From assembly GCF_964204645.1 (NCBI RefSeq), contig NC_134036.1:5777600-5841599 (forward strand): 64,000 nucleotides of DNA, in the 5' to 3' direction. Both the position numbers and the translations under genes were made by a program. This DNA comes from Tubulanus polymorphus. Taxonomy: Eukaryota > Nemertea > Palaeonemertea > Tubulaniformes > Tubulanidae. Positions 6,600 to 43,090 of this stretch are shown here, piece by piece (the first letter of the stretch is position 1; each line of letters begins with the position of its first letter). A model generated the notes under the pieces. That model had not been told where the DNA came from. It saw only the letters and a program-made list of their open reading frames with translations, and searched no databases.

Positions 6600-9500
6600 T
6601 TAGTCGCACTGACATGTGAACTTCAACGCCTCTTGCGCAACTCCTTGCATATTTGTCGTTTCCTTGAACTGAAGGAACATGACGTCACCCTCGCCTTGGA
6701 CTCCCGGGATTGGTGTGGTCTGTTGGCCGCATTGCCACTGGCTCCAGTCAGCCGGGTCATTGGTTTCTTTCACTTTATGTCGGAATCCTTCGCTACAGCC
6801 GCCGCGGCCCGCAAAGTTAGCATTGATGGCCGTAAACTCGCTCTTCACTTTCTGCAACAGAATACATTTTAATAGATTATGTGATTTCATTAAGAACCTA
6901 TTGTATTTTAACTACTCGCTGCGCGCACGCTATGGTTCACCTAGAACCTATTGCGTATGTTCTACTCGCTGCTCTCCCGCTACGGCTGTGAGGACTTGGT
7001 TCACTGAGAACCTATTGTGTATGTTCTACTCGCTGCTCTCCCGCTACAGCTGTGAGGAGAGGGGTTCACCGAGAACCTATTGCGTCTGTTTTATTCGCTG
7101 CTCTCCCGCTACAGCTGTGAGGAGAGGGGTTCATCGAGAATCTATTGTGTCTATTTTACTAGCTGCTCTCCCGCTACAGCTGTGAGAAGAGGGGTTCACC
7201 GAGAACCTATTGCGTCCGTTCTACTCGTCGCCCCCCGCTACAGCTGTGAGAAGAGGGCTTCACCGTGAACCTATTGCGTATGTTCTACTCGCTGTTCTCC
7301 CGCTACAGCTGAGTGGCGACGGGTTCACCGAGAACCAATTGCGTATGCTCTACTCGCTGTTCTCCCGCTACAGCTGAGTGGCGACGGGTTCACCGAGAAC
7401 CTATTGCGTCCGTTCTACTCGTCGCCCCCCCCCCCGCCTGCAGCTGTGAGATAACACAGTTCCTGTATCGCGTGGATACGTATGAATTTAAAACGGAATT
7501 ATCCTCACCTGATCCTGTTTGGGACAAATCAACGTGAACGTCGTAGTTTTTCCCGCGGCATCGCTCCACAAAAGAACGTGGTCACCTGACATGGTTCCTT
7601 CGGGACATTCTAGCACTCGTCCCGGTAGTGGATGCACTGCATTGAAAATACATATATAGGCACTAAGGAAATTAATGCTCTGATAATTACTACGACATTA
7701 TTGGAAGATAAGAAGTATCAGATCGCCGCGTAGTAGTATCAACGTATTATTGGTCGAACTGGTCCCAATTATCGTACGGTAACCGATAGAACAAGGCTTC
7801 TAAACGTCGGTGAGACGGTAAGTCCAGATTGTTCATATTCTACTTACGACAGTCGTGCGCCTGCACCGGTTCGCATTCCGGGGTTTTCGGGTACTTTTGG
7901 CAGACGTACGGCGACGGTTTGAGTCGAGTAGACGGGTACGCCGCTGGTGGGTAGTGGTGTCCGCTTCCCGGCGGGTAGTACGGTCTCATTCCCGGTAGGT
8001 AGTGCGGTCCCGGTCCTGGTGGATAGTTCGATATCTTTGATAGAATTGAATAGCGAAGGTAAAATGAATGTTTATTGAACAAACTAAAAAGTCGAACGAA
8101 TGTACAGCGTTAGCGTAATTGGCTACACGGGTGAACTATATTTTTGACTTGTGACATTCACGGGTTCTGTTCATCAGTGTCGCGTGATATGCGTACGTAC
8201 GTCAAAAAATGTTCCTACTTAATCGAACTTCCCTGCGCGTCTGCTAGGTGGGGCGAAATAGCGGCTAACAGTGATTCTAAAAATCGCTCCTTTTTTTGAA
8301 AGATTTATTAGGCATTTTTACCTTTTCACAGAAATGTATTTATCAAGGTCAGAGATACCATTAGAAATAAGTTGTTTTTTTACTTTACTACAGTTCCGCT
8401 CTGATAAGATGTTTTACTTGTATTGGAAAGATTGCGTTCATTGGTATTTTTGGCAACTTTTAGTTCGGCTCGAATCAGCTAACTTCTGACAATAAGACAA
8501 TGATCAAAATATCTGAAATCTGATACGACGCAAAAGAACAAAAACGGCCATACTTACCGGTTGCCACTGGAAATAGCCTGGGCTCGATGCTACAGGACCC
8601 GCTGAGAAAAAAAAAACTATGATTACAATGTTGTGTAGAATCTAATGATCGAGCGTATTCGTGTATTTGTGGGCGGTAATAATCTGCAACCAGGACCTAC
8701 CCTAGTATGGGATCTTCCCTAAAATCACGTTCCCTTCAGTTTTCGCATTTCGCTTAGATCTTTTGATTGAAAATGAACTACGAACCCCAGATATCAGACG
8801 TTTAGCGCACTTTCAAAAGCTGTTCGTCTATGCTTCGCGTGTGTTAACGTCTCTAAACCTGAGACGTGTTGTTGAAAATGGACTAGACACCACAAACATT
8901 ATGAATTTTATCAGTTCATGTTCAAATACTGATACTTCACATCCGTGCAGTGTTTATCCTTGGTTCCGATTGAAAATAAACTAGGAATATTAGGAATTTC
9001 ACCAGTAAAATTCCAAAAAAATGATCGTCAAGTACAATGTGGTTTATCGCGCGGTTAATTCATGACTATGGGTATTGAATTTTGCATTGCGAATCCATAT
9101 TCGAATCTCAGGTTCGAGTTTGCTTAGTCGCATTCGAAAACTGCGTCGCGAAACGCATTGATTTTCATAGATTTGGTAAAGCGCGGATTGCATCGAGTTA
9201 AGCGCGCTATGAAATGCGTTTTGTCGACGACGTCTAATTTGAAACGACCATTTTCAACTTACGATCGGCCGAAGCCGGGGCGGCTCCGTCGTTCGAGAGT
9301 TTGTACGGTGGTCCGTACGGTTGGCGAATTGAACTCGATCCCCACGCTACAAATAGACAGAAATTCCATCAACAAAAAACGTCGTAAAGATTTTACAGCG
9401 GAAAGTCAACGAGAAAAAGCAATTGAATGACATCGAGCGTTTTCTCTCGGCTTCCAAAATAGAAAAATATCTAAACCATTAGATGAAGTTGGACTTTGAG

Positions 9501-9951
9501 AACTGAAACTTTGTTAGCGCGCATTATCGCCACGAATCTTATATCCCTGTTCCTCAAATTTGCGCATTTCAAGACCAATTCCGAAATGATGGGTCAGCTA
9601 TTATTCATCGAAATCGTATAGCTTGTCATAATACGGCATTTCAAGTGAGTTCGAATCAAATTTCCTAACACTTGTCGGCGTATACTTACGACTTCCAACA
9701 CTCATGAAATCTGAAAATATAAATGCGGGAATATTTTTTTTTTTTTTTAGTAAGTGCAGCGTCTTTTTTTCACGGTATTTTAAATGTTGCGCGAATCCAA
9801 GTGCAAAATTCGAATTGAAGCGCCGAACATTTTCGAAAATGCTATGCTCATGATATGCAAATATACAAATTCGTCACGCTTTCAAAATAAACCTGTACTT
9901 ACACGCTTGAGCGCTAGCCAACGCTAGGATAACAGCGACGACGACCTTCAT
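6600..9951 (-). CDS. Gene A: secreted Pro/Gly/Tyr-rich protein with Cys C-terminal module (254 aa)
   Basis: Seven coding exons join in frame: 9903-9951, 9690-9710, 9263-9346, 8558-8601, 7848-8034, 7509-7636 and 6600-6851 (stop TAA at 6600-6602), all with GT-AG introns. Residues 1-16 (MKVVVAVILALASAQA) are a signal peptide. Residues 24-66 are Pro-rich. Residues 67-128 hold NYPPGPGPHYLPG-type repeats and end in VCQKYPKTPECEP. Residues 129-171 carry ECPEGTMSG. Residues 172-254 carry GFRHKVKETNDPADWSQW and end CQCD. The acceptor before exon 5 (atcaaag) is weak, and this exon is more diverged than in B and C. The start ATG directly follows an intron acceptor, so the 5' UTR is spliced. I do not recognise the family; an extracellular structural role is inference. 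Confidence 0.85.
6890..7455. repeat. 66-bp minisatellite in last intron of gene A
   Basis: About eight copies of a ~66-bp unit contain GAACCTATTGCGT, CTCTCCCGCTACAGCTGTGA and GGGGTTCACCGA. The unit is divisible by three, so long spurious frames appear. The same unit sits in the last intron of genes B and C and, inverted, in the third coding intron of D and E. Confidence 0.9.
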
Positions 9952-10346
9952 CTGCGCTCGTCGTGAAAATGAAGGCAAAGAAAAGAAAATTGAGACAACA
10001 CATACTTTTGTCTAATGTCTTTAATTTGCGTTGTATATTTGAATGCAGAGAGCCTACGATGAGAAGTATGAAAATTAAAACGAGCTTTAGGCCCCCAATG
10101 CGCTGCACAATCCGCGGAATATTCTCCCAGAGAAAACTCGTGGGCTTAATGAGTGCGATTCCTTTTTTTCTTAAATCGCGCGTGTATAAACTATCGATGA
10201 TTAAGCATAGATTCGCGTATCTACTTTTTCAAATTGAAAATCTCTTCAGTCACTATAGTTCTTCAACCAAGGGTTTCGTATCATAATAGCGTGTCTTCAG
10301 AATGTTGCAGAAAGTAGCAATATACAAATTAAACAGGTTTAATCAT

Positions 10347-10349
<3 letters not shown>

Positions 10350-10404
<55 letters not shown>
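10350..10404. repeat. (AT)n microsatellite
   Basis: An uninterrupted AT dinucleotide run upstream of gene A's signal exon, inside the 5' UTR intron. Confidence 0.95.
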
Positions 10405-10406
<2 letters not shown>

Positions 10407-10485
10407 TATTATAATTGATATGATAATGGTTAATTTTGTAAATCTAGATATTTTAAAAAAAGTAAGTCAGGGATATAGAACTCAC

Positions 10486-10565
10486 CTCAGGCTGATTTGT
10501 TTACCCGATTATCTCGGCGATTCGGCGCGACTGCCGTGCGAAGTCTGGAGCAGCGAGATTTAATG
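10486..10565 (-). promoter_or_regulatory. Gene A promoter and 5' UTR exon
   Basis: The minus-strand donor CTGAG|gtgagt at 10480-10490 ends a non-coding first exon that splices to the acceptor at 9952. CATTAAATC at 10556-10564 is the best TATA-like box, at the place where B and C have clearer boxes. The alignment with the B and C promoters is recognisable but diverged, so the start site (about 10530) is approximate. Confidence 0.55.
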
Positions 10566-10633
10566 CTGAACGAGAATCTGTTCGGCAGGTGTTACGCCGA
10601 AAATTGCGTTGCGTAAACAAAATATCGACGATT

Positions 10634-10678
10634 GAAACCGTCTCGAACACGCGGTCCCAGCGCGCGCGATGACTTATG
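10634..10678 (-). promoter_or_regulatory. Conserved upstream block AAACCGTCTCG ... GATGACTTATG (gene A)
   Basis: The same two words, in the same order, occur upstream of gene B (16301-16356) and gene C (26499-26559), about 70-150 bp beyond the TATA-like box. On the gene strand the second reads CATAAGTCATC, close to an AP-1/CREB-type site. Conservation among diverged paralogues suggests a cis-element; function is inferred. Confidence 0.5.
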
Positions 10679-10699
10679 GCCCTAGTGCCTTGGGACGGA

Positions 10700-11160
10700 A
10701 CTGCGGAGAGATGACTGAGACACAGTTAGTGGTACGTGTATTGAAACCTATGTCGCTTCTCAACACGGAGACGACTGATACACAGTTACGGATATAGGCC
10801 AGGGGTAATAATACCGATGTCACTTATCTCCAGGGAGAAACGACTGATACACAGTTACAGATATAGGCTAGGGGTAATAATACCAATGTCACTTCTCTCC
10901 AGGGAGAAACGACTGATACATAGTTACAGATATAGGCCAGGGGTCACTTCTCTACAGATGTCACTTCTCTCCAGGGAGAAACGTCTGATACAAAGTTACA
11001 GATGTAGACTAGGGGTAATACCAATATCGCTTCTCTCCAAGGAGAGATGACTGATACACAGTTACAGATATAGGCTAGGGGTTATGATACCAATATCGCT
11101 TCTCACCAAGAAGAAATGACTGATACAAAGATGCATATAAAACGACTGATACACAGTCAG
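10700..11160. repeat. ~69-bp minisatellite upstream of gene A
   Basis: About six copies of a unit contain AGGGAGAAACGACTGATACA, CAGTTACAGATATAGG and AGGGGTAATA. It is non-coding and lies just upstream of gene A's promoter, as the 57-bp array does for B and C. Confidence 0.85.
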
Positions 11161-12240
11161 ATGAAGGGTTTATGATGCCACTGTCACAATTCGAGAGAAG
11201 TATTTTTTTTTCAAATTCACAGTTATCTTATAGCTAATTGACTACATGTACAGTTCAATCACCATATATCAAAAGGGGTTGGGCCATTTACGGGTCCAAA
11301 ATTGGCCTAGGCCATCGAATCCTTTTTGATCAACTTATATATAACTCAAATGGTTGTAAAAGGTTGGACTTATACATTGGGAAAGTTAGGGGGTGGGGGC
11401 TGATTGTGTATTCCAGAATTGATTTAGCAAAATTTCACCAGGTCCGAATTAACATCTTGGCTTGAAAAATGATATATTCATTTGTTTACTATCTGTTTTA
11501 GGTGGCGACTATTGTCAGGCGTGAAACTCTATGTATAGCGAAAGAGCACTGTAATCTTTACATCATCGCTTGAACGCCCAATGCCATTGAGAACAAATGT
11601 ATTTCTCTTGATATGGGTAACAGGGTAACGCCATCTATTAGTCTTTCGGCAATTTAACGACTTAAAAAAGCTATACTGATGCCAGTGCGGTTTGAGGATC
11701 CACCGACTAGTTCGCCATCTAGCGGATAATTAGTTTCGTAGGTCAGTCAGCCGACTGCGCCAGGTTCTAAAGATTCCGTTGAAACTCCCACCTGACGATA
11801 TCGACGAATGAGTAAAATTGCTGTGTCATTGTTAAACATCGTAGAATATCTTCCAGTAAATGGGTCGCCTTTTTTTCGACACGGGCGTTTTTTGACAGTT
11901 CGGTTTCGATTAGAAATGTCCCTAGTTAAGCCCTGAACCCAGGTGAGGTGTAGATGATCAGTTTTGGAAATGTCGTCGCTGTTTGAACGTTAAATGTCCG
12001 TTGTTTTATGGGCATTTCCAATCATAGATCGTTCACCGCGCGGTTTCTACGGGGAAAAACGTCGGGAAACGAAGAAACCACTTATCCCGTGCATTCGTCT
12101 TCTTTGCGCCCACGTGGGACGTGGATGGACAAGTTTTTGAAAGCCGGCGCTTATAGAATGGCTTACGTCGTGATTCTATTCCCGATCACGAATGTCTCAT
12201 CGCGCTTTCTACGGGCAAAACGGGCTGCGAAGACCATACA
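11161..12240. other. Spacer between genes A and B, no gene seen
   Basis: Reading frames here are short and show no recognisable product. 11890-12000 carries the ~110-bp dispersed repeat. A 3' flank like that of gene C begins near 12240, with AATAAA on the minus strand near 12283 and again at 12399-12404. Confidence 0.6.
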
Positions 12241-12398
12241 TAAACGAACCAACTACCTTTTTTTCAGTGATTTTAACCTGAATTTTATTCGGATATACCT
12301 TACGAAAACCCGAAGTGAACTCTTCCACCATATGGCCATGACGATACAAGTCGTTCAATGATAATGATTAGTGTTAGATATCTCGCAATCGAGATACA

Positions 12399-12404
12399 TT
12401 TATT
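12399..12404 (-). terminator. Candidate poly(A) signal of gene B
   Basis: AATAAA on the minus strand about 150 bp downstream of gene B's stop codon. Another lies near 12283-12288, at a position that also has AATAAA beyond genes A and C. Confidence 0.45.
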
Positions 12405-12549
12405 TGAATATTCATTATTTTGCTTAGAGATCCAAAAGTATTTCGTATAATTTCGCGCGTACATCTTGTATCTATGAACAGATGGCGTCGTTTATACTGC
12501 TTCTCTTGTATGTGAATGTAGATCTCGACTGGTTCGCGTTCTGTCCCGT

Positions 12550-15500
12550 TTAGTCGCATTGACAAGTGAACGCCAGCGCCTCTGGCGGTCCGGACAACGC
12601 GGTGGTACCCTTGAATTGAAGGAACATGACGTCACCCTCGCCTTCGACTCCCGGGATTGGTGTGGTCTGTTGGCCGCATTCCCACTGGCTCCAGTCGGCC
12701 GGGTCATTGGTCTCTTTCACCTTATGTCGGAATCCCTCATCACAGCTTCCGGCGGAAGCTTCATTGTTAGCATTGATGGCTGTAAACTCGGCCTTTACCT
12801 TCTGCAAGAAAATAGAATCAGTGGACGGGCGATGAGTTAGAGATACTTAATGTCAGAGGTTCAGAGAACCCTATGTGTCTGTTCTGCTCGCTGCTCTCCC
12901 GCTACAGCTTTGAGGAGAGGGGGTTCACCGAGAACCAATTGCGACTGTTCAACTCGCTGCTCTCCCGCTAAAGCTGTGAGGAGAGGGTGTTCACCGAGAA
13001 CCTATTGAGTCTGCTCTACTCGCTGCCCTTCCGCTGCATGTGAGGAGAGGTGGTACACCGTGAACCCATTGCGTCTGTTTTGCTGGCTGCTCTTCCGCTA
13101 AAGCTGCCGGATAGAGGGGTTCATAGAGAACTTTTTACGTCTGTTCTACTCGCTACTCATCCACTAATGCTGCCACGAGATGATCGATTTCTTGCTATGG
13201 ATAGCTATGCGTTCATGACGTAACAATAATCCTTACCTGGTCTTCTTTGGGACAAACCAATGTGAACGTCGTGGTTGTACCCGCGGCTTCCGACCACATG
13301 AGATTGTTGGTACCTGACATGGTTCCTTCTGGACATTCTAGCACTAGTCCCGGTAGTGGATGAGCTGGATTAGATTGAATATACAGATATTTGTTTCGGC
13401 AATCATCCTGTGGCAATATTGGGGGAAATAGAAAATCACCGAGTTGAATTATCAGATTTTTGATCGAACCGATCTAGTTTTAACGTATCCTCCAGGCAGC
13501 CGTTACGGCATGGGCTCGATCCTAAACCCGGTGTATCGATCATAAGTTACGTCATTAGTTTTCATTTGGCAGCTTTACATATTTTGACGTCGTAAAAAAG
13601 CGTCGAAAACAATATTTCCATACATCGAAAAAAACTATTACGCATTAGAACGATAACCACACTCAAACGTGGTGAACGGATAATAAGATAAAAACCCACT
13701 ATCTATAGATCACCTGACGATGATCTCTAGGGTGAGATCGAAACGTCGTGTATTCTATATATTTTAGATTGAATGAATAAATTCTTGTTTTTAAATTCTG
13801 TAGATCGTGGGTTTGTTATCTTACTATTACGCGTTATTCTATGGGTCCTATGTAAATGGATGACGCGTTCTACATCATCGAATCGGCGGCTTTATAAAAA
13901 AAGCGATGAGAATTTTGGAAATCCTCGTTTATTTTGTAATTGATTGAATTTTACCACTATAGGCTATAGGCTTTCCTTTTCCAGAGAAGCCGTGTGAATT
14001 TTCATTAATGGTTAACCGTTGATTCTACCGAGTTGTGGACGTTGCTGACTTTAGGTAAGTAGAGATTGTTCGTATATTCTACTTACGGCAGTGCGCGTGC
14101 GGCGGTTCACATCCCGGGGTTTTCGGGTACTTTTTACAAACGTACGGCGATGGTTTGTACGGGCGTGGCGGGTACGGTCCCGGCATCGGCGGGTACATCG
14201 GTCCCGGTCCTGGTGGGTAGTGCGGTCCTGGTCCCGGTGCCGGTCCTGGTGGATAGTGCGGTCCTGGTCCCGGTGCCGGTCCTGGTGGATAGTTCGGTTT
14301 CTGTGATATAAACGAATCACGGTTGAAAATCTATGTTTTTTTTAAATTTTTATTATCAACATTAGTTTGATTTTCGTTATCAAAACGTTTACAGGAGGTA
14401 AGTAATCCAATTGACTTATCGGTGACACGTAGTGTACAAAATAAGGTTCATAGCAGCGCAAAACTAGTGATAGGAACCACGATTCTAAAAACGTAAATCC
14501 GTATCTTCTTTGTCAGCGCTTGATCTGCCTCGATTTTGTGTCGATTGTTTCATAGAACTTTTCAAACAGAAGAGACAATTAGGAAGAACGGTTTCACGAC
14601 GCTCAATGATGCGTTCTTTGGAAAAATTAAGTCATACTTACTGGTTGCCAAGGGAAGTAGCCCGGGCCCGGTGCTGCAGGACCCGCTGAAAAAATAATAA
14701 TGATAATTTTCTAATTGTGAGGCTATAGCCGTTTCTGTTTTTGTCGTAGCTGGTTTCCAGTATCTGAGACACTTTAAATCAAATACAAACACCGTGAATG
14801 AGAGATATTTTCAGTTGTGAAGACTCAAAAGGCTACGAGATGGTATTGTAAAGATCTAGGCTACATATACTGATACTGGCATTTTGGGGTGTTTACAGCA
14901 AATTAGCAATCCGTTTCAAATTTCTACTTCGTCCTACAGTAATTGCGGTTGCTTAATGCCATTCGAACAGGGCTTCGCGCAACGTATAGATTTCTATAAC
15001 GTCAGTTAAGCGCAGTTTGCATTGATTTAAGCGCTATATCAAATGATCTTTCATCACGAACAAAAACGATAGTATTCAACTTACGATTGGCCGGAGCCGG
15101 TGCAGGTGCCGGTCCGTACGACGGTTTGTACGGTCCTCCGAACGGTTGGTGAATGGGACCCATTCCCCACGCTACAAATGTACAGTAAGTCTATTAATAG
15201 AAAATCGTTGAAAATAACATGGCTAAGTCAACACAACTTCACGAAAGCGAATGCATATATTCATCAATCTCGTAGTTCGTCCTCACAGAATTTTCGAGTA
15301 GGTTCGAATTCTATAAAAGTCGTGTGCTTTCGAATACAGTTTCGAAGCATTGGTAAATATGTTATTTCTATAGGCCCTATTTCTATTCGGTCAAATGGTA
15401 TCGATTATTTATAGTATCTAATCTATCACTAAGTAAAGCAGTAAGCAAAACATCCGCCAGTGTATCACAAGCTTCGTTCGGGGTATCTTTCGTTTTCGTT

Positions 15501-15796: not shown

Positions 15797-16121
15797 CTGC
15801 GGCAATTTAGTAAAACAAGAGACATATGATGCTTTATAATACGGTTCGCATATCTATATATTATTGAACGAAGAAAGCCCGCAATCATAGGTAGAAGCAA
15901 TTTAAGTGTGGTAGCAGCGTCGATACTCAAACGCTTCTAGCTATTACCATTAGAATTATTATCATTTTCGTTATTTTTTATCAATTTTTTTTCTCCATTA
16001 TTTCTATTGATGTCTGGGTAAAGAAAATAATAGTAATGATAATAGCAATGATTACGATGATATAAATAATGATATAAAATCTGATAACAATGATAGTAAT
16101 AATCTGGGATGATTCACTCAC

Positions 16122-16593: not shown

Positions 16594-17095
16594 TATTGAG
16601 GGATACAAGGGGTCAGTTACTGAAAGGTTGTTTATTGTAAACCAGTGTTTAAATACCGCGGTACAGAGGTCAGTTGCTGAAAGGTTGTTTATTGTAAACC
16701 AGTGTTTGAATACCGCGGTACAGGGGTCAGTTGCTGAAAGGTTGTTTATTGTAAACCAGTGTTTGAATACCGCGGTACAGGGGTCAGTTACTGAAAGGTT
16801 GTTTATTATAAACCAGTGTTTAAATACCGCGGTACATGGGGCAGTTACTGAAAGGTTGTTTATTGTAAACCAGTATTTAGATACCGCGGTACAGGGGTCA
16901 GTTACTGGAAGGTTGTTCAATGTAAACCAGGGGTTAGATACCACAGTACAGGGGTCAGTTACTGAAAGGTTGTTTATTGTAAACCAGTGTTTAAATTCCG
17001 CGGTACAGGGACCAGTTACTGGAAGGTTGTTCAATGTAAACCAGTGGTTAAATACCACAGTACAGGGGTCAGTTACTGAAAGTTTGTTTGTGTAA
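16594..17095. repeat. 57-bp minisatellite upstream of gene B
   Basis: About nine copies of a 57-bp unit contain AAAGGTTGTTTATTGTAAAC, CAGTGTTT, ATACCGCGGTAC and GGGGTCAGTTACTG. Because 57 is a multiple of three, both strands stay open, giving frames of 155-163 codons that are artefacts. A larger array of the same unit lies at 26755-27575, upstream of gene C. Confidence 0.9.
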
Positions 17096-17747
17096 ATGAT
17101 ATATACGTGAAATGTGGGTTATAGTATTTATTTTTTTACCTTTTTCTTTGAAAAAAGGTGTGCTGATAAAAAGTCTAACACCTGACATGATAATAATTCC
17201 GTTGACATGTGTTACTGCGACCTTGATAAACCTTTCAGTTTTCGGCCGCCTATTCCATAAATTACTATTTTAATGCCAGGTCAGCAAGAAGTTTTCGCAT
17301 TTATTCCAGATGCTACCGGTGGCGATTATGGCTTTCTCGGCAAACTGCATCAATCAGATTGTTCTCGGAGAAAAGTCGAGTACACGGTTTCGCAGTACCC
17401 ATAAAGGGACGCTTTGGTTTGGTATACGCTCGCGTTACGCGACAGTTCCGAGAACGGCTTCGTTAGGAGGAGAGTGCCCGTTACGTGGCGGATGGAAGAC
17501 AGGGCATGCAGAGTAAAGCCCCGTAAATACCCAGCTGAATAGATGAAACTATATCCGGAGAAAAGCGATTCTTCATTTTACCGCCGACATCCAATCCTTC
17601 CACTGGTGGTGGAAAACCCGGGCACGTCGCGGACGAAGTTAAACAAGTAAGTCGTACAACGAAACCGGACAATCGAAACGAATGTTCACCGGAGTGGGGC
17701 AAGGCGCTTACGTGCCGGTACTGGTATCATCGGAGCCTGGTATTCCC

Positions 17748-18085: not shown

Positions 18086-18094
18086 GGTATTCCC

Positions 18095-22048: not shown

Positions 22049-25000
22049 TTAGTCGCATTGACAAGTGAACGACAGCGCCTCTGGCGGTCCTGCCAGCAAG
22101 CTCGTTCCTTTGAATTGAAGGAACATGACGTCACCCTCGGCTTCGACTCCCGGGATTGGTGGGGCCTGTTGGCCGCATTCCCACTGGCTCCAGTCGGCCG
22201 GGTCATTGGTTTCTTTCACTTTATGTCGGAAACCCTCTTCACAGTCTCCATTAGCGTCTTCAGCGTTAGCATTGATGGCTGTAAACTCGGCCTTTACCTT
22301 CTGCAAGAAAATAGAATCAGTGGACGGGCGATGAGTTAGAGATACTTAATGTCAGAGGTTCAGAGAACCCTATGTGTCTGTTCTGCTCGCTGTTCTCCCG
22401 CTACAGCTGTGAGGAGAGAGGGTTCACCGAGAACCTATTACGTCTGTTCTACTCGCTGCTCTCCCGCTACAGCTGTGAGGAGAGAGGGTTCACCGAGAAC
22501 CTATTGCGACTGTTCTACTCGCTGCTCTCCCGCTACAGCTGTAAGGAGAGAGGGTTCACCGAGGACCTATTGTGTTAATTCTTTCTGCTATTCAGTTACT
22601 CCTCGCATGAGATGACAAACTTCTTTTCTATGGATACATATGAATTCAAGACGGTATAAACCTTACCTGGTCTTCTTTGGGACAAACCAATGTGAATGTC
22701 GTGGTTTTACCCACGGCGGCGGTCCACAATAGAGGGTTGGCACCTGACATGGTTCCTTCTGGACATTCTAACACTAGTCCCGGTAGTGGGTGCGCTGCAT
22801 AAGATAGAATATACAGATATTTGTTCCGGTAATACCCACGCGGAATTATTTGGGGAATATAAAATCACCGCGTAAATTCGAACTGATCTGGGTATACTGT
22901 ATCCTTCAGACAGCCTTTATCGGCAAGGCGCTCAGCAATGCTACGATCGTCGATGCCTCAATGGGGGTCTGATTTTACTTTTTACTGTATTTCATGACCG
23001 TTACACACAATGTTTTTAAGTTGTGAAAAAAAAATGAATTGGTTACCGTTAATATCGACGAGGTATCTTGGTCGACTCTATTAGACGAAACGTGTTTATA
23101 TATTCTACTTACGGCAGTGCGCGTGCGGCGGTTCACATCCCGGGGTTTTCGGATACTTTTTGCAAACGTACGGCGACGGTTTGTACGGGCGTGGCGGGTA
23201 CGGTCCCGGCATCGGTCCCGGCATCGGTCCCGGTCCCGGAGGGTAGTTCGGTCCTGGTGGATAGTTCGGTTTCTATAATACAATCGAATCGTGAGTGAGC
23301 TCAATGTCTATGCGTGTATAAGATTTCGAGCTCGACCCGCACGATTGTGATTATACTAATTATTGTTATTTGTATTATTATGATCATTTTCAATAATTTT
23401 ATCCGGCGAGATAGTGAAATCCGACAGATTTTGGCGTAGTCACCTAACGACCTAATTGTACACTAGATGGCGAACTAATCGAAAGGTCGACACTCAAGCA
23501 GCACGTGCTTTTGGTCTGTCTAACAGTCGTTGAGATGCTCAAACACTGACAGATTGCGATACCTATAGAAATTTTTTTGGAAAAATTGCAAAAAATCCCC
23601 AGATCTAAATACCACGAAGGGGTTTTAACGTAACGTAAGAATTAGAATCGTGATTGAATCACGTAGTATACGAAATAAGCCTAATCAGCGCAAAACCAGT
23701 GATAAATGCGTGGTTTCCAAAAAAAGATGAATCGTCATCTTGTCAGCGAGTGATCTACCTCGATTAAGCGTCGATTAGTACGGACAGCATTACAGCAGTA
23801 AAGAAAAGTAGAGCAACGCCACGGCGCTTACGAATACCAGTCTGACTGTATCGCATTGCTCACAACCACGATACCATTATCTAGTAAGCGCTTATATCGT
23901 GTTACTGTCTTTGTTTGCTAAAAATGAGTATGAAATGCATTTTAGGTATTTTCTGGCGAAATCTATTGTTTGCGTAATATTTAAGAGGGTCTAATCATCA
24001 ATGAGTGAACAGATTGATAGGTGGTCGAGTTCTCCTTAAATCATCTTGGATCCGCCCCAGGTTGTGTGGATATACAGAGAGATTGTGGGGTGTGGTTTTC
24101 GAAGATGAATACGCCTTATTAATTTCTGGGGGTCGGTTCCTCAGTTGAGACTTTAAGTCCAAAAATGGTCTTAAATTTTAAGACTGGTCTTAAGTTGTTA
24201 GATTGTTTATAGAACTAACATGGTCTTAAATTGGTCTTAAGTCTAAGCCATGACTATTAAACCGGCCCCTGAGGGTTAAAGAATTGCCTTCTGGGCGCTA
24301 ATTCGATTATTACGGGGTTCCAAACCGAGGGGAATATAAGCGCAATCATTGCGTCGGTATAAAGCGAGAACAGTGTATGGAATGAGTGGTTGCGAGTGAT
24401 ACGATACAGTCAAACCCTGGAAATTCGTTCTTGAGAAAAAACAGTCATACTTACCGTGTGCCACGGGAAGTAGCCGTGGCCCGGTGCTGCATGACCCGCT
24501 GAAATAAAAAAAGAACAAAATCGTTATTACATTTTTATGATAAGGCTATTATCATTCAGTTTTCCGCGAGTTGGTACGTGTATTGTCGTGCAGTGGAAAT
24601 CCTATCTGCAGCCAGGACTGACTACCCACAATATGAAAAGTTTTCGCCGTAGCCTGTGTTCAGTTCTTTGTCCGTGATATTTTCAGTCGACATTGTCAAC
24701 TTCAAACCCCACAAATGAGTCATCTACTCAGTTGCCAAGAATCAAAACTACAGGTGAGGTCGTCATTGAAGTCCTGGGTACAGATGTTGAAACCTGCATA
24801 TGTAGATGTATACAGCCAATCGGCCATATATGCAACAAATTATAACCTCGTCTAAAGTGACTGCAGTGGCTTGATACCGTTCGTAAATTGCTTCGCGCGT
24901 CGTGTCGATTTCTATCGCGTCGGTAAAGCGCGTTTTGCATCGATTTAAGCGCGATGTAGAATGCATTTTATTTACTAACAAAAAAAAACTTACGATTCGC

Positions 25001-26754: not shown

Positions 26755-27575
26755 GTAAAGTCAGTTACTGAGGGACTGTGTAATGTAAACCAGTGTTTAA
26801 ATACCACGGCACAGGGGTCAGTTACTGAAAGGTTGTTTAATGTAAACCAGTGTTGAAATACCGCGGTGCAGGGGTCAGTTACTATGAGGTTGTTTAATGT
26901 AAACCTGTGTTCAAATACCGCGGTACAGGGGTCAGTTATTGAAAGGTTGTTTAATGTAAACCAGTGTTTAGATACCGCGTTACAGGGGTCAGTTACTGAA
27001 AGGTTGTTTGATAAAAACCAGTGTTTAAATACCGCGGTACATGGGTCAGTTACTGAAAGGTTGCTTAATGTGAACCAGTGTTTAAATACCACGGTACCGG
27101 GGTCAGTTACTGAAAGGTTGTTTAATGTAAACCAGTGTTTAAATACCGCGGTACAAGGGTCAGTTACAGAAAGGTTGTTTAATGTAAACCAGTGTTTAAA
27201 TACCGCGGTACAGGGGTCAGTTACAGAAAGGTTGTTTAATGTAAACCAGTGTTTAAATACCGCGGTACAGGGGTCAGTTACTGAAAGATTGTTTAATGTA
27301 AACCAGTGTTTAAATACCGCGGTACAGGGGTCAGTTACAGAAAGGTTGTTTAATGTAAACCAGTGTTTAAATACCGCGGTACAGAGGTCAGTTACTGAAA
27401 GATTGTTTAATGTAAACCAGTGTTTAAATACCACGGTACAGGGGTCAGTTACTGAAAGATTGTTTAATGTAAACCAGTGTTTGATACCGCGGTACAGGGG
27501 TCAGTTACTGAAAGATTGTTTAATGTAAACCAGTGTTTAAATACTGCGGTATAGGGGTCAGTTACTGAAAAATTT
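26755..27575. repeat. 57-bp minisatellite upstream of gene C
   Basis: About 14 copies of the unit described at 16594-17095, with lower divergence between neighbours. Both strands are open for over 220 codons because the unit is a multiple of three; there is no start context or splice support for a gene. Confidence 0.92.
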
Positions 27576-28614: not shown

Positions 28615-28624
28615 GCTGTAAAGC

Positions 28625-32200: not shown

Positions 32201-33658
32201 CATTCTCGATAATTTCGACGATTCAGTAAAATTATGATTCGTTAATAAATACGACCTTCTCATCTTCAATAACTTTAAACGATTCAATCAATTTATGATC
32301 GGTTACTTATGACGACCTACTCATTCCCTATGACTTAAAAGTTTGATCAGTTTTTCTATTACTCTAAAAAGAGTAAAGAAACTCAGTCCCTAGTAATCAG
32401 ACTGATTGCACTAAGCTCTGATTCACCTAGTAGTCGCTATGATGTATCGTACTTACATCATGTTGGTGCATGTATGGTTGTGTCATTGGCCATTGCCCCG
32501 GGTGTTGGTGTTGATTGGCGTGTGCGTGGTTCGGATCGGTGTTCTGTAATTTCGAATCAAAATTCAGCGTTAGACAATATTATTTTCTTGATATCGTCAC
32601 ATAGCTGCGAGTAGAACAGCCGCAATGGGTTCTCGGTGAACCCCCTCTCCTCACAGCTGTAGCGGGAGAGCTGCGAGTAGAACAGTCGCAATAGGTTCAC
32701 GGTGAACCCCCTCTCCTCACAGCTGTAGCGGGAGAGCAGCGAATGGAACAAACGCAATAGGTTCTCGGTGAACCCGCTCTCCTCACAGCTGTAGCGGGAG
32801 AGCTGCGAGTAGAACAGTCGCAATAGGTTCACGGTGAACCCCCTCTCCTCACAGCTGTAGCGGGAGAGCAGCGAATGGAACAAACGCAATAGGTTCTCGG
32901 TGAACCCGCTCTCCTCACAGCTGTAGCGGGAGAGCTGCGAGTAGAACAGTCGCAATAGGTTCACGGTGAACCCCCTCTCCTCACAGCTGTAGCGGGAGAG
33001 CTGCGAGTAGAACAGTCGCAATAGGTTCACGGTGAACCCCCTCTCCTCACAGCTGTAGCGGGAGAGCTGCGAGTAGAACAGACGCAATAGGTTCTCGGTG
33101 AACCCTCTCTCCTCACAGCTGTAGCAGGAAAGCAGCGAATGGAACAAACGCAATAGGTTCTCGGTGAACCCGCTATCCTCACAGCTGTAGTGGGAGATCA
33201 GCGAGTTAAACAGGCCATTTTGGGTTCTTGTTGAACCCTCGTTCGGCTAGTCAAGCATCTTCGTTGCCGATAATCTTTAAGCTGTAGGGTTAATGATAAA
33301 CCTATCGTTTGAGTTAGTCTTACCGCGTGGCTATGAACGTAACCGATGTACGGTGGCTGTCCCTGGTGCGAGTGCTGATTCGGGTCCGCTGAAATAGCAA
33401 ACAACATATTCCGATGAATTCATGTGTTACGAAACATCGTTTAGAAAGTAAGTGTACGGCTTAAGTTATTTAATTTCGACTTTCATTGTTTACGGTCAGT
33501 CTGTTTTACTACTTATAAGAGGATGTTTTGTATCGGTACGTACGCTGTTGGTATCCCCAATCTGAAAGAGATCGAATATCATCACCATTACTACTGTAAT
33601 TATCAATATTAATATGATTATTATTGCAGCTATTGTATTTCGATGATGCAGCAATGGG

Positions 33659-33708
<50 letters not shown>

Positions 33709-35357: not shown

Positions 35358-35477
35358 CTTTTTGCCGTGTGTTCAGAGCTTTTTCGTCGATTTCAGAGAA
35401 GATCGCGTTAATAATTCGATGAACTGGTTAAAATCCTCGATGTGACCGAGTCGTCTCGACGCGTCGGGTTTTTATGC
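35358..35477 (-). promoter_or_regulatory. Gene D promoter and 5' UTR exon
   Basis: GCATAAAAACC on the minus strand (35467-35477) is a good TATA box; the start would lie near 35437. The non-coding first exon ends GGCAAAAAG|gtaggt at 35352-35366 and splices to the acceptor immediately before the ATG at 34437. Confidence 0.72.
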
Positions 35478-35760
35478 GCGCCCGTTCGATTTGTCACACC
35501 ACGCCCCGCGGCGGCGCGTGGTTTTTGCCGAGACACCCACCTGCGACGAGCGGCTGGCGCCCGAACATTCCATCCATCCTTGCCACACCGTAGAACACAC
35601 CTCGCCGTGAGTAAGACGCGGCGGCGACAGGTGTGCGCTCGGTGATCTACACCGAATCGCGGCCGTAATGGATTTCTCGTAGCTGGTGCGCATTGTTTTC
35701 GGCGTTATGGGTCAATTGCGCGCTGCGCAACGTGCGAAGACGCAACGCCGGCGATTTATG
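35478..35760 (-). promoter_or_regulatory. Conserved upstream region of gene D
   Basis: This stretch is nearly identical by eye to 43091-43370 upstream of gene E, including TGGCGCCCGAAC, CATCCATCCTTGCCACACCG and CGTAATGGATTTCTCGTAGC. It is better conserved than the introns of the two genes, suggesting a functional regulatory region or very recent gene conversion. Confidence 0.65.
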
Positions 35761-36162
35761 CGTTCTTTCTTTTCGCGTGAAGCCGGCCTCCCAGCTGCGG
35801 CGGCCTCCAGCGGCGAAAAGTGTCGGACTGTGAGTCCACGGTTTTCGACCTAAAAACTAAAAACTAAAAGCCGGCGGTCGTCGTCGGGCGCATTTTCGGA
35901 GCTCCGTCGTCTGAGAAACGAAATCGATTTAATCAAATCCTTTTACTTGTTTGATGTTAAATACTGCGATTAACATCAGTGGTCCATTCGCAGTTTTTTG
36001 TTTCGATTTTTTATTTTCGATATTTACAGACTTAAAACATTAGAATAATGAACTGATTCGTATTCTTAAGTCAATCTCAAGAGGAACTGGGTCCAAAACG
36101 ATTACCCCGAGTCCCAGTTCTGGTGATCATAATTCACAGCTTCTTCGGGACCGCGTGTAGCC

Positions 36163-36292
36163 AGGGGCCGGTTGCAGAGTCATGGCTTAGCCTTAAGACC
36201 AGTCTAAGACCAATTTAGTTCTATAGCCAATCTAACAACTTTAAGATTTAGGACCATTTTTGGATATAAAGCATGACTGGGCAACGGGCCCC
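36163..36292. mobile_element. MITE with GGGGCCGG ends
   Basis: Begins AGGGGCCGGTTGCA and ends TGCCCAGTCATG-type inverted words with GGGCCCC at the edge. Internal 'cttaagacc' words match the element at 24127-24270. Confidence 0.6.
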
Positions 36293-36587
36293 AGGAAAGT
36301 AAGCAAGATTCGAAGCCATCCGTGGTTTGATATTGTCACTCCCCGTTTGACGACATCATCGAATGGGTTTTAATTAATTAGATGAATTCAATTTAATTCC
36401 CAACACTCGGACAACCTTCAATTTCGAAACTATCCCCTTCGGGCCGTTATTTGGGCCAGGATTTTCGAACTAACCGATGCCATAGGACAGAAAAACGTTA
36501 CAAATTTCGCCAATGGCGCCCGGGTAACGTGCAGCTGCAACAACGCTACTGCGGCAAGCGAGGATTCCGCGTATGGCAAGCAGAGAT

Positions 36588-36815
36588 CCACCAGGTGTCG
36601 CTAGTAGTTACTTGGTCTTCCGCGTGAATTCATACAACATTTCAACTTGAAATCGGATGAACTTTTCTGTGAAACTGATAATATCTAATGATATCGAATG
36701 AAAACTTTCGGAAAATTAAAGCGTACTAAGTTGGCCGTACGATAATGCACGGACTAAAGAGCCTAACTAATTCAACGGAGGACCTACTATACTCGTCGCG
36801 CCATCTGGTGGCGTA
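36588..36815 (-). repeat. Interspersed repeat bounded by two CTCF-like motifs
   Basis: CCACCAGGTGTCGC at 36588-36601 (plus) and, on the minus strand, CCACCAGATGGCGC at 36798-36811 bound a ~220-bp segment. The latter matches the animal CTCF consensus CCASYAGRKGGCRS at all 14 positions, the former at 13. The family recurs at 40355-40660, 44165-44465 and 62950-63275. Confidence 0.5.
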
Positions 36816-36905
36816 GCTTGTGTAAGCAGCTCCCCGATTAACGATCCCGACATTGTACAACGTAACAAACCAGGCTAGAGTAATCTATACGCTAAACAAA
36901 TGACC

Positions 36906-36911
36906 TTTATT
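36906..36911 (-). terminator. Candidate poly(A) signal of gene E
   Basis: AATAAA on the minus strand about 130 bp after gene E's stop codon. Confidence 0.55.
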
Positions 36912-37040
36912 TTTCTTTTTTTTCAAAACGAAAAAGCTTCTCTTCGATAAGTTATATGCGGATGTTTTCGCGGTTCGGGCGGGCGTTCGATGTGCGACGG
37001 AATGATCGCCCGATCGCTAGTAGCCTCCGGTGTTCGGCGT

Positions 37041-40000
37041 TTAGACGCATTCGACGTTGTATTTGAGAGCCTCAGGCGGTCCGCTGGGCGCGGTGGTACC
37101 GGTGACTTTCACCTGCAACAGTTCGCCCTCGGACGTGAACGTGTCCATGGCTCCCGGTGCGCCGCACACCAAAGCGGTGTAGTCGGCGTCCTCGTTGTTG
37201 CCCTTGATGTTGATTTGGAAGCCGTCAGCGCACGGGCTGGCCGTGTTGAACGCGTACGTGACGATTGAGACTTTCACTTTCTGCAATGTCGAAAATAAGA
37301 AACGACGTTAGATAAATATAGCATCGCGATTTTCTAATAAATAGTAACGGTTTATTCATCGTTTCGAATCGCTTTTCATAATCAAATCGAGTAAACGATT
37401 TCGTTGGGTTTCGCTACGTCGTCGGATTCGAATTGCGGCTGGTTGGGGTCTGGCGTGGCAAGCAGGTTCGAATCCAGACTTTGTGTGAAACCTGGCAGAG
37501 CCTCGCGGCGTCATCGGGTTCGAATCCCGGTCACGGCGGTATTTCTGTTCGACGACGCGGGCAACCTACCTTATCATCGGCGCACGAGTAATAAGTGGTG
37601 GTGTCGACTTTGTTTTCGATGTCGCCGTAGATGACGGAAATTTCAGTGGCCGGCGTGGTCGCGTATTTGACTGTGCCTTCGGGTAATCTTGCTGAATTTG
37701 GAAAAAGAACGAGTAAACGGTGTGAATTATCATAGATGAGACACGGTAAAGCGTAGGATTAGTTTGGCCATGGTTCTTTACCGAGTGAAGAGACAGTGGT
37801 CTATTGTAAGCAGTGAAAGACGGAGTCTAATGTATTTCACAAACTCTTACTCAGTATTTGACACCAACTCGTGGTAGAATTTTACCGGTCTCAACTTTAC
37901 CGCAGTAAGAGACAGAGTCTACTGTATTTCACAAACTCTTACTCGGTCTTTGGCACCAGTCCAAATTTTATAGAGTGTTCTGCATTTCATAAACTATTGA
38001 TCAATATTTGGTTCGAAAGACTATATACTGTAAATGCTCGTCGTACTTACTGCATTTCGGTGCTGCCACTGGTTTCGGGCAGCCCGGGTGGTTAGGGTAT
38101 CGTTGGCAAACCCACGGGGCGACCGGGAACGGGTGCTGCGGTTGCGGTTGCGGCTGCGGCTGCGGGTACTGGTAGTAAGGCGGGAACTGCGGCTGTGGCT
38201 GCGGTTGCGGTTGCGGTTGCGGTTGAGGCTGCGGTTGCTGTTGTCCGTATGGTGGCCACATCGGTTGATATGGCATTTGACCCTGGAAATAGAGAATCGA
38301 AACTCGATCAATGGATGCTTTATAGGCACGCGGCTAATTGAATATTTCTCTAAGCAAAAAAATAAGGAATTAGTAGTAAGCGGGATGTTATTCACGAATT
38401 GGGGATAGTGCCCAGTGTACCGGGATAACAGTGACATTGCTCGAAGTCGAATTTGTTATGTATGTGGTGGTGAACTTACTCCAGGGTACGCTGGATGCGT
38501 GTGAGCTGGATCTGTCGACTGTATAATGAGAAAAGTATTTGATAGGCATCACGATGTTTGGTTATAGTAACAACCCAACTTCGGTGTTTCAGCAAAATTA
38601 TGATTAGTTACTTATGACGATTAGTTCATTCTCAATGACTTCAACGATTCAGCATAATTATGATTAGTCATTATGACGACCATCTCAATCTCAATAACTT
38701 CAACGATTCAGTAAAATTGTGATTAGTTACTAATGACGACCTTCTCATTCTCGATAACTTTATCGATTCCGGATCCAGTTTCACAGTCAGGAGTTAAGAT
38801 TTGACCCCCTGAGTTAACTCATTGAAAATGAACTAACTTTAACTCAGAGTTCACTCTAACTCACAACTGTGGAACTGGATACAGGACAATGCTTAATCGT
38901 TGTCACTTATAAACGACCTTCTCATTCTCAATTACAAGATTCAGTTAGATTATGATTAGTTATTATGTTACTCTGATTCACCTAGTAGTCGCTATTATGT
39001 ATTTTACTTACATCATGTTGGTGCATGTATGGTTGTGTCATTGGCCATTGCCCCGGGTGTTGGTGTTGATTGGCGTGTGCGTGGTTTGGATCGGTGTGCT
39101 GTAATCAATCAAAACAGCAGAATTAGTTGATATGTATTATATCTATCGGTATTTTTGACGCTATTGAAACCAATTCACTAACGATGTTAGATATTGAAAT
39201 TGACTTTAAACGACTGTTTGTGCACTACGTCATCAATATTGGCGTTCCAAAACATAGCTTCTGGTTGAGTTTATTGGCGTTTAATTTGAAATTGATTATA
39301 TGTCATGACTTCTATTTTTATTTTCGGTGAAATTCCATGTATTTCAAATAATGAATTCTAATGGCAGGGATGATATAGTGTAGGTGGGTGCGGACTACGT
39401 CATCGAAATTAGGGCTAGACGGTTTGCAGGTCAATACAATTCAATTGTCATTTATTGGAACAGGCACAATGGGATCTCGGTGATACCCTCTCCTCATAGC
39501 TGTAGCGGGAGAGCAGCGAATAGAACAGACGCAATAAGTTTTCAGTGAACCCCCCTCCTCACAGCTGTATAGCAGGAGAGCAAAGAAGTAGATCAGACGC
39601 AATAGGTTCTCGGTGAACCCGCTCTCCTCACAGCTGTAGCAGGAGAGCAGCGAGTAGAACAGACGCAATAGGTTCTCAGTGAACCCCCTCTCCCCACAGC
39701 TGTATAGTGGCAGAGCGGCGAGTAGATCAGACGCAATAGGTTCTCGGTGAACCCACTCTCCTCACAGCTGTAGCCGGAGAGCAGCGAGTAGAACAGAGGA
39801 TATTACCCACTGTAGCTTTCCGATGGCAATTCTTTCACCAAGGGTGAGATCAAAGCTGTATCTTGTAAATAAATCTTACCTGGTGGTTATGAACATAACC
39901 GATGTACGGAGGCTGCCCCTGGTGAGAGTGCTGATTTGGATTCTCTGAAAAAAAACAATCAAGGTTTGATCAGCATACGATAGTTTAGGCTATAAGGATT

Positions 40001-41536
40001 TGGAATTCGGGAAAACAAAACGTGCACGCAATTAAAATTAGTCGATTCAAAAGTATAGAAAAATAATGGTTATAATCACACTCACGTTGTTGGTATCCTC
40101 CCCAATCTGAAAGTAAAACATACGAAAATTAACAACGTTTTCTAGTTAGGTTCGACACGGCAGAGTGTGGCTAGCGCGTTTCCGCTAGATGGCGTGAGTG
40201 AATGTCAGTTGATTTTTAGATATTGTTTAAACGTATTTTATAGCCTCTCTCTGTATATACCATGCTTACGGTTGGGGTTTGAATGTTGATTCCTAAATTT
40301 TTCGCGCTTGTACTATTCGTTCATTTTCAAACAACGAGGACTCCGTGTCGCCAGCTTTCCCGGTAGATGGCGTGCGTATCAGTGCGACGACCCGGTCGAT
40401 ATTTAGTTCATTTTGATTTTTAGCCTCCCTCATCAGAAATTAGGCAAATAACTCCTCTGGAGTAACTCGGATGATCTTTTGGTTCGTATATAGGGTGAAT
40501 TTTACTAATCACCATTCAAAGAATTTGAGAAATGATGGATAGATTTCGATCGAATCTGAGAAGAAATCCGGGAGTTGTCGTCTGAATGCACTCTAGCGAC
40601 ACCAGGTGGATCCTCACTTGCCACACGTAAAGTCCTCATTCTGAACCGCTGTTACGAATGCAAACATAACAGTACAAATGCGCGAAAGGACACTGTTGGC
40701 CGTCGACATTTTTGTGAAATTTAATGCTAAGAATAGATAGTAAGGACATTTTCTTTAATCATCGCTTATGTTGATCGGTATAGAGTTCCGTCCTCTGGCG
40801 GAAAACCCTTAACGAATCGATAACCCGATAGATGGCGCACGGGTTGTGTATTTTGATATTTTTAACGCTTGTCACCGTTTACAGATTGCCGCTTCGATAT
40901 AAACACCGATATCAGCCGATTCGCGACCCTAAGTTGCGAAAAGTTGCGGTCGAGCAGATAGTTTGCGAAAGGATGAATTTGCAAAAATAGTTTTTTTGAA
41001 ACCATAAAAACCGTTACAATTATGTTAACATACATTGATAACTACTATGCGTTATTTTTTCGGGGTTCTGTGCGAGTCGATGTGCACTACGTCAAAAAAT
41101 ATTGCTGTTTCAAAACAACCATTGTGATTGTGAATTTGGCCTTCATTTTGTAATCAAACATCTAATCCACGGATCTAATTTCAAATTTGATGAGCTATAT
41201 TGATTTTTCGATAGGATGTGCACTACGTCATCAATATATCGGGGATAGACTGGTTGCCGGTCAATTCAATTCAATCATTGGAATATTCAAATCCAAATTA
41301 ACTGTATGCAATGGAGTGTTTTCCGTTCCGTGTCGCACGTGGTCTCGTGGTTTTTTTTTGCCGTCAATGTTTGGAGACATGCCGTATATACATAACAGCA
41401 AAACAAAATCGTATCATATTCAAATTGCGTGTCATGGCGTCACGTTTTTATGCAAATTAGGCACCATGACGTCATGCGCATACTTACACGCTTGAGCGCC
41501 TACAACGGCTAAAAGTATCAGACACGCTGCCTTCAT
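37041..41536 (-). CDS. Gene E: secreted Gln/Pro/His-rich protein with Cys C-terminal module (284 aa)
   Basis: Eight coding exons close in frame (855 nt): 41488-41536, 40086-40106, 39880-39944, 39012-39098, 38480-38518, 38051-38282, 37570-37691 and 37041-37280. Signal peptide MKAACLILLAVVGAQA is identical to gene D's. Residues 17-23 start YWGGYQQ. Residues 24-87 are His/Gln/Pro-rich. Residues 88-164 hold a long alternating Gln-Pro run and end WVCQRYPNHPGCPK. Residues 165-205 carry LPEGTVKYATT; residues 206-284 carry CADGFQINIKGNNEDADY, CGAPG and SGPPEALKYNVEC. The Gln-Pro exon is 18 nt longer than in D, from repeat expansion. Exon 1 appears to end in ATG directly before the coding ATG after splicing, so an extra initiator Met is possible. 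Family not recognised. Confidence 0.87.
37780..37960. repeat. 92-bp minisatellite in gene E intron
   Basis: About two copies of the unit at 31075-31475, in the same intron and orientation as in gene D. Confidence 0.8.
38570..38970. repeat. ~60-bp tandem repeat in gene E intron, split by a MITE
   Basis: Same unit and intron as 32030-32345 in gene D. The array is interrupted by the element at 38773-38880, which must have inserted after the D-E duplication because gene D lacks it. Confidence 0.8.
38773..38880. mobile_element. 108-bp MITE, TIR ATCCAGTTYCACAGT
   Basis: 15-bp ends match with one difference: ATCCAGTTTCACAGT and, inverted, ATCCAGTTCCACAGT. It contains AGTTAAGATTTGACC. A relative is at 3431-3808. 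Confidence 0.7.
39467..39805. repeat. 66-bp minisatellite in gene E intron 3, inverted
   Basis: About five copies with the same orientation and intron as gene D (32596-33245). Confidence 0.88.
40355..40660 (+). repeat. Interspersed repeat with CTCF-like ends
   Basis: Starts near GGTAGATGGCGTGCG and ends with TAGCGACACCAGGTGGATCC, enclosing TTTTAGCCTCCCTCATCAGA. The same order of motifs is seen at 44165-44465 and 62950-63275. It lies in gene E's first coding intron; a solo CCGCTAGATGGCGT is at 40182-40195. Confidence 0.6.
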
Positions 41537-41579
41537 CTGCAAAATAGAAATCAGAATATTTCAGTTGTCATTGACTCGT

Positions 41580-41916
41580 AATTCCTCCGCAAGGTTCGAA
41601 CCCGATGGCATCGAGAATTGCCACGGTACGAAACCCTGCCACATTAGACCGAGTGCGCAGCTACACGCGCCGCTTAGATGATGTCATTAATAGCCTATCA
41701 GATATCCTGTTTTATTTTAGCCCGGGTTTTCCCATTAATGATTCTTCCGCGAAATTTGCGTCAGCGATTTTAAAACGAGCAATCTGATTAGTGCCGCAAG
41801 TTTCCGCGCGGTTAATCTTCGCATGTACCTGCGCGCTCGGTCTAGTGCGGCAGGGGTTCGTACCGTGGCTGAGTTTAGCCATGCCATCAGATTCGGATCC
41901 CTGCCGAGGAAGGATG
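41580..41916. mobile_element. Palindromic MULE-like element, copy 2 (diverged)
   Basis: Same structure as 17748-18085 but in the opposite orientation and more diverged. The GGTTCGAACCC and CAGATTCGGATCCCTGCC ends remain. Flanking TTGACTCG and TTGATTCG may be a decayed target duplication. It lies about 45 bp upstream of gene E's signal exon, inside the 5' UTR intron. Confidence 0.6.
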
Positions 41917-42989
41917 CCGTTGATTCGGTTGTTTTCACTATCGTTATCGGGCCCGAAGATCTAAAAATCACTTGCGCGCATCGTCTTTTTTGTCTTTATA
42001 AATTTATAACATCATTCAGTTTTTTTTGGATAAAATATTACAATTAAAAAAATCGAAATATTAAAAAGCGATTTTCTGTTTATGTCCTCGAAATAGAATT
42101 GCCGCTCAAAAAGCTCGGAATGCGCCTGGCCTGAGTGTACGGCCTGTTCTACCACATATTATTTATGAAATTATTTTCATCTTTTTAACTTATTACACCG
42201 AATCAATAAATATCTCGAGATGATTTATTTTTCGAACGTAAATACTTTGATTTCGGCCGATCTATATTTTCGCATACGAATAAGAGACGTACTGCGAGTA
42301 TAGATTCGAGATAAGATTCAGCTAGAATTTAAAAAATGAGTTTGTCAAAATTGCAAAATTGAAACGCATTTTGTATTCATTACTAAATTTCCTAATTTTT
42401 CGTTTTTTTTCTTGAATATATTTTTCAACCGTTATTTCGTTAGTGATGAAAACCTAAACGAATTCAACGTCCATTTCAAAAAGTTCGCGGTGCATAAGTT
42501 CGCCTGTCGGATCAAACCATCTGAAACGAACTCATTTCGACCTAAACTAAACCTAGAAAACGAATCCTGAGATATTCATATGTAACATTAACTGAAAAAA
42601 ATAAGTATTTTCTATGAAAAAATTGACAAGAAAATCTAAATAAAAGAAAGATGAAGAAAAAGAAAAATATTTTTAAAAACCAGGACATTCATGACCGCCA
42701 GAGACTGATTACAATCTCGATATTTCAGAGTCGATAAGCAAAATCGACAGTTCGTGATATAACAGTATATTAGAACAGTTCTTCGGTATTAACTTAACTC
42801 CATCATCAGGGAAACGAAGAAAAAAAAAAATGGTTTCCCCGAGTTAGAAATAAAATCATGAATTATTTACAAATGAAAGCCTCAGCTGCATAACTATAAT
42901 TTTTTTTTTCCTAGAAAAAAAAAAATATTTATATAAAGACCGTATATCTTTCTTTCTTCCATTTTTTCGAACGAATCATTTTTACGTAC

Positions 42990-43090
42990 CATTTTTGCGA
43001 ATATTAAATCGATCGACGATCGTATTTGTTTTCGGAACGAATTAATCCTCACAGTGATCGAGTCGTCCGGACGCGTCGACTTTTTATACG
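42990..43090 (-). promoter_or_regulatory. Gene E promoter and 5' UTR exon
   Basis: CGTATAAAAAG on the minus strand (43080-43090) is a strong TATA box. The first exon runs from about 43050 to the donor AAAAATG|gtacgt at 42984-42996. Confidence 0.72.

Follow-up and report, generated by a model that had tools for sequence, protein, structure and literature searches.

The gene family and its upstream blocks

The stretch of Tubulanus polymorphus contig NC_134036.1 analysed here, referred to as the window, spans 64,000 nucleotides (C12:5777600-5841599) of an assembly comprising 267.8 Mb on 77 contigs. Its minus strand carries a tandem array of five genes, A to E, coding for small secreted proteins with a low-complexity middle and a cysteine-bearing C-terminal module, and these belong to a family with further members outside the window. 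We re-spliced all five genes from the minus strand. Gene A (254 amino acids (aa), 9951-6600) comprises seven coding exons (9951-9903, 9710-9690, 9346-9263, 8601-8558, 8034-7848, 7636-7509 and 6851-6600), a model that draws on its GT-AG introns and on the family alignment. The same number of coding exons is found in gene B (263 aa, 15796-12550; exons 15796-15748, 15569-15552, 15171-15085, 14685-14642, 14300-14087, 13364-13237 and 12801-12550) and gene C (246 aa, 25844-22049; exons 25844-25796, 25608-25591, 25083-24994, 24498-24455, 23272-23113, 22794-22667 and 22300-22049). Genes D and E both encode a His/Gln/Pro-rich middle and have eight coding exons each. Gene D (277 aa) extends from 34437 to 29256 (34437-34389, 33561-33544, 33388-33324, 32543-32457, 31973-31935, 31751-31538, 29847-29726 and 29495-29256), and gene E (284 aa) from 41536 to 37041 (41536-41488, 40106-40086, 39944-39880, 39098-39012, 38518-38480, 38282-38051, 37691-37570 and 37280-37041).

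The five lengths are those proposed by a first-pass annotation of the window, and the genes are real: each of the 32 coding introns has GT-AG borders, and the frames close in all five cases. Intron phases are identical among A, B and C (1,1,1,0,1,0) and between D and E (1,1,0,0,0,1,0). In each of the five genes the start ATG immediately follows an AG acceptor, hence a non-coding 5' exon is likely to precede the coding exons predicted here.

To delimit the family, the genome was searched using the final exon of D, of B and of I as queries (match counts are lower bounds). Members at significant E-values were found only on contig C12, with a single extra match on C1 at chance level (E 6.5). The family thus amounts to at least eight intact genes and one remnant, in two groups on the one contig. 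The tandem family of the first-pass annotation therefore stands, but its count of five does not, as genes F, H and I and the remnant G had been missed. Gene F (224 aa) enters the window with its first two coding exons (1326-1275 and 793-752, minus strand), while the other four lie to the left of it (C12:5777541-5775357). Further left lies G, a remnant reduced to one exon, in which the frame is broken. Genes H (228 aa, C12:6045624-6048275) and I (240 aa, C12:6050117-6053539) are located on the plus strand, opposite to the array and ~230 kb to the right of gene E. All were obtained by genome search, and F, H and I by splicing, with GT-AG borders in 15/15 coding introns. Between F and G (L025:5960-5408, minus strand) lies a small two-exon gene for a secreted peptide, the cysteines of which are arranged in a knottin-like order (C, C, CC, C, C); its only Pfam match is UPF0506 at E 0.019, below the cut-off. 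Among prokaryote genome contigs, 45 stretches fitted the family pattern and none proved to be a relative.

In a tree of the eight C-terminal modules, D and E form a pair, as do F and H, and A groups with B and C. As F and H lie 267 kb apart in opposite orientation, their pairing suggests that a rearrangement or a segmental duplication took place later. Pairwise identity among the modules of A to E ranges from 35 to 86%. We determined pairwise ratios of nonsynonymous to synonymous substitution rates (dN/dS, Nei-Gojobori) over this module and obtained 0.37 for A-B, 0.38 for A-C, 0.34 for B-C, 0.37 for D-E and 0.43 for F-H, with dS of 0.24-0.41 for the close pairs A-B, A-C, B-C and D-E. Among distant pairs, synonymous sites have reached saturation; the values of 0.63-0.91 seen for D-F, D-H, E-F and E-H come with dS near 1 and are given no weight here. 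The identities of A to E, combined with close-pair ratios of 0.34-0.38, indicate a likeness beyond chance, and the close-pair range of 0.34-0.43 shows that the family consists of maintained coding genes. No sign of diversifying selection was seen among the close pairs in this coarse whole-module test. The presence of the remnant next to F might suggest that the models are artefacts or decayed copies. This is contradicted by the 47 of 47 GT-AG coding introns across A-F, H and I, by closed frames and agreeing phases, as well as by dN/dS well below 1 in close pairs, leaving such an explanation with a negligible probability.

Genes D and E are each preceded by a related block on the minus strand, at 35432-35770 and 43376-43044 respectively, with 87% identity over 341 columns. 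A 246-base part of this block occurs at only two places in the whole genome, upstream of D and of E. The blocks contain the TATA-like boxes CATAAAAA (D) and TATAAAAA (E), the latter near 43088-43081, at the right-hand border that the first-pass annotation gave to the cluster. The block of E is a putative promoter.

Two minisatellites accompany the genes. A unit of 65-68 bases is common to the last intron of A, B and C (6934-7421, 12877-13172 and 22376-22571) and, in the opposite orientation, to intron 3 of D and E (32603-33213 and 39458-39797). A 57-base unit lies upstream of B and C (16608-17096 and 26760-27570) and of H (L026, about 1100-1730).

Protein layout and the C-terminal module

The re-spliced proteins have a common layout. 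From the N-terminus, a signal peptide is followed by a mature start that contains an aromatic residue as well as glycine (YFM.., YW.., WG..), a Y/W-P motif encoded on its own short exon (NYATWYP, GYFPWQP etc.), a Pro-rich spacer, a C-x2-YP-x4-C hook and the C-terminal module. The spacer is the most variable part, being rich in Pro/Gly/Tyr in A to C and in Gln/Pro/His in D and E, which contain 14 and 15 histidines respectively. In outline (signal peptide, low-complexity middle, Cys-bearing C-terminal module), this is the arrangement that the first-pass annotation had read from the window, and a literature search returned no paper title describing the layout. The part ahead of the module measures about 70-140 aa in all eight members. 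Counting after residue 20, six members have nine cysteines while D and E have seven, so that the number is odd in 8/8. The N-glycosylation sequon is absent from seven of the eight, and the isoelectric point (pI) of mature A to E is near neutral to acidic (5.7-6.4).

The C-terminal module, ~120-135 residues long, is the product of the final two exons (7636-6600 in A, 13364-12550 in B, 22794-22049 in C, 29847-29256 in D and 37691-37041 in E, all on the minus strand), and was assigned by alignment of the last exons and by profile comparison with CUB. We consider it probable that the module is CUB-like. A phmmer search of the PDB with the D module returned the CUB domain of Neuropilin-2 first (E 0.019), and an eight-row family profile again placed a Neuropilin-2 CUB first of four matches (E 0.17). 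CUB domains are abundant in the same genome (at least 153 matches), and we built a CUB profile from 124 stretches at 28 loci, which partly overlap, so that a few rows may be doubled. When the eight modules were aligned to this profile using hhalign, a score of 31.3 was obtained over 79 columns (probability 73.6, E 2.9e-5 for the one comparison). The best of 200 column shuffles scored 17.7 and the reversed family 14.5, while a C-type lectin control profile (20 of 63 matches in the same genome) reached 12.2. When the comparison was repeated 40 times, each with a random CUB subsample of 20 rows, scores ran from 16.8 to 35.6 with a median of 26.0, and with a six-row CUB profile the full family scored 25.0 versus a shuffle maximum of 20.0 (n=150). 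In the hhalign alignment, C3 and C4 of CUB fall in register with two cysteines of the last exon that are invariant in 8/8 members. The residue after C4 is glycine in six of the eight (D and E included) and aspartate in F and H. Invariant cysteines are also present ahead of the last exon in the family alignment.

Several observations weigh against this assignment. None of the eight modules matches a Pfam family at or above its cut-off, and CUB is absent from the hmmscan output even at E<=10. Searches with the A module, full-length B and D, the D and E modules, and all eight modules gave unrelated families at best (E 0.034-0.13), below cut-offs. The lowest of the 40 subsample scores (16.8) falls inside the shuffle range, and with the six-row profile neither D-E alone (15.9) nor the other six alone (19.4) exceeded the shuffle maximum. 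Scanning single sequences with a CUB hidden Markov model clearly detected D alone, at 13.1 bits. Six others (A, B, C, E, F and I) ranked among the 208 controls, which were either shuffled or reversed, and H was not among the 25 matches listed. C2 of CUB is not aligned, the family cysteine before 'KKVKI' sitting at the 'AP.G' turn, and the C1-C2 pair of CUB was accordingly not recovered. AlphaFold2 predicted strands for the last exon alone, at poor confidence (predicted local distance difference test scores of 52 and 49), and Foldseek with the better of these models listed 74 matches at E<=10 and none at E<=0.001. MAp19 (rank 3, E 1.5) and PCPE-1 (rank 7, E 3.8), which we take to be CUB proteins, are among those matches and do not count as evidence. 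A common intron position in the family and in ordinary CUB exons was also considered and dropped; the positions are near, but the phase differed in the one case worked out (L042).

These points leave room for the module being an independent, beta-rich and Cys-stabilised fold, its likeness to CUB arising from convergence of short patterns. The missing Pfam match, the displaced C2 and the detection of D alone as a single sequence all speak for such a fold. Convergence is less readily reconciled with a score of 31.3 over 79 columns that has C3 and C4 in register and lies far above the 200 shuffles and the lectin control, nor with a neuropilin CUB heading two PDB searches, and we regard an independent fold as a serious but unlikely alternative. 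The module and the CUB domain (PF00431) have general properties in common: extracellular location (predicted for the module), a length of about 110-125 residues and a mostly strand prediction, with profile similarity extending over the 79 columns and including C3, C4 and the 'CG' that follows C4 in most members, D and E among them. In contrast to CUB, the family C2 is shifted by some residues towards the strand that opens the last exon and has no aromatic residue after it, one or more extra C-terminal cysteines are present, the closing G-F-x3-Y of CUB is replaced by E/x-A-L-x-F/Y-x2-x-C, and Pfam does not detect the modules. It is because Pfam gives no CUB match and the C1-C2 pair is not found that we call the module CUB-like rather than CUB. 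The family is without Pfam recognition, and to that extent unrecognised as the first-pass annotation had it, yet its Cys-bearing module is probably no orphan, given the likeness to CUB in both phmmer and hhalign.

Elsewhere in the genome, CUB-matching exons are densely packed over about 22 kb at C6:6110412-6132061, probably representing one long multi-CUB gene.

Neighbouring genes and genomic context

To the right of the array, three tandem rhodopsin-like receptor genes are found on the plus strand (48169-49326, 50721-51881 and 53234-53875), with Pfam matches to Srw/7tm_1 at E 1e-11 to 7.5e-7; the third, which includes a long run of serines, is only an incomplete open frame. A 688-aa open frame (59978-62041, plus strand) has C2H2-like zinc-finger motifs at both ends when inspected by eye, with Pfam zf-C2H2 at E 0.053. 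The open frame at 45797-46354 (minus strand) resembles by eye the end of a long interspersed nuclear element reverse transcriptase, which Pfam did not confirm. Five C1q matches were obtained from the genome. The mollusc haemocyanin domain (PF14830) gave no match, a result that does not establish its absence, and COX1 was not found in the assembly.

On contig C6, ten Hox-type homeodomains are lined up in a single plus-strand array (5318228-5634747), an unusually orderly cluster. The fifth is followed by KLNGP, which we take to be the Lox5 signature of lophotrochozoans. This Lox5 homeodomain suggests that the genome belongs to Lophotrochozoa.

Proposed role and comparison with known systems

The reading we favour, to which we give an even chance, is that these are lineage-restricted small secreted proteins, multiplied by tandem duplication, that carry CUB-like heads and assemble into secreted extracellular material. 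The CUB-like head would bind a partner, either glycan or protein, with the Pro-rich tail acting as a flexible or interacting spacer. Since the number of cysteines is odd (nine, or seven in D and E), one might be left free for an inter-chain disulphide, allowing assembly of cross-linked proteins into a tube lining, cuticle, shell organic matrix, mucus or adhesive. For the binding, the cross-linking, the material and the tissue, taken by themselves, our expectation falls slightly short of even. The case for a material comes from composition and analogy, which tells against the proposal. An astacin-like protein with CUB is reported from the sea-star footprint (PMC9382459), CUB-bearing secreted proteins are upregulated in the anemone pedal disc (PMC6626399) and CUB genes are highly expressed in the tubeworm collar (PMC8476170). 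By analogy only, CUB is thus plausible as a component of secreted materials.

A more specific version appears speculative and rather improbable to us. Here, rewired CUB domains would serve as building blocks of a lineage-specific material, the C1-C2 bond having been lost and C-terminal cysteines gained with the odd number kept. This could yield a head able to link to its own kind, borne on arms that are Pro-rich in A-C and His-rich and metal-binding in D-E, and therefore two co-produced kinds of monomer.

Tandem duplicates with a binding-type domain, variable Pro-rich parts and compact upstream blocks with TATA-like boxes would also suit secreted defence proteins. In these, microbes would be recognised by the CUB-like heads, with the Pro-rich tails serving as effectors or linkers and the array resulting from an arms race. 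The close-pair dN/dS of 0.34-0.43 gives no hint of diversifying selection at the level of the whole module. Furthermore, typical Pro-rich antimicrobial peptides are cationic, unlike mature A to E. We therefore judge a role in defence to be improbable.

A reproductive function (egg coat, egg capsule or seminal) was considered by reference to the spermadhesins, single-CUB secreted proteins of mammals that are encoded by tandem genes and consist of hardly more than one CUB domain. The parallel lies in small secreted proteins with a single CUB-like domain, encoded in a tandem cluster. None of the eight members is essentially one CUB domain, given the N-terminal part that each carries in addition, and a reproductive role seems less probable still than one in defence.

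Eight spliced proteins with exact exon coordinates (53 coding exons) are now available, probably for a lophotrochozoan extracellular material. The analysis suggests that current Pfam models overlook a CUB family in disguise here, which gives these secreted proteins the look of orphans; disguised domains often lie behind the orphan label of lineage-specific matrix proteins.

Among known systems, shells, tubes, jaws and adhesives contain low-complexity secreted matrix proteins, a loose class with which the family has in common a signal peptide, Pro/Gly/Tyr or Gln/Pro/His-rich stretches and tandem duplication; that class is without a membership test. With the spermadhesins the family shares small size, secretion, one CUB-like domain and tandem genes, but it differs from them in its long Pro-rich N-terminal part, the separate C-x2-YP-x4-C hook and the cysteine plan. 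The system is ordinary in kind, being a tandem duplication of small secreted proteins, and new in detail.

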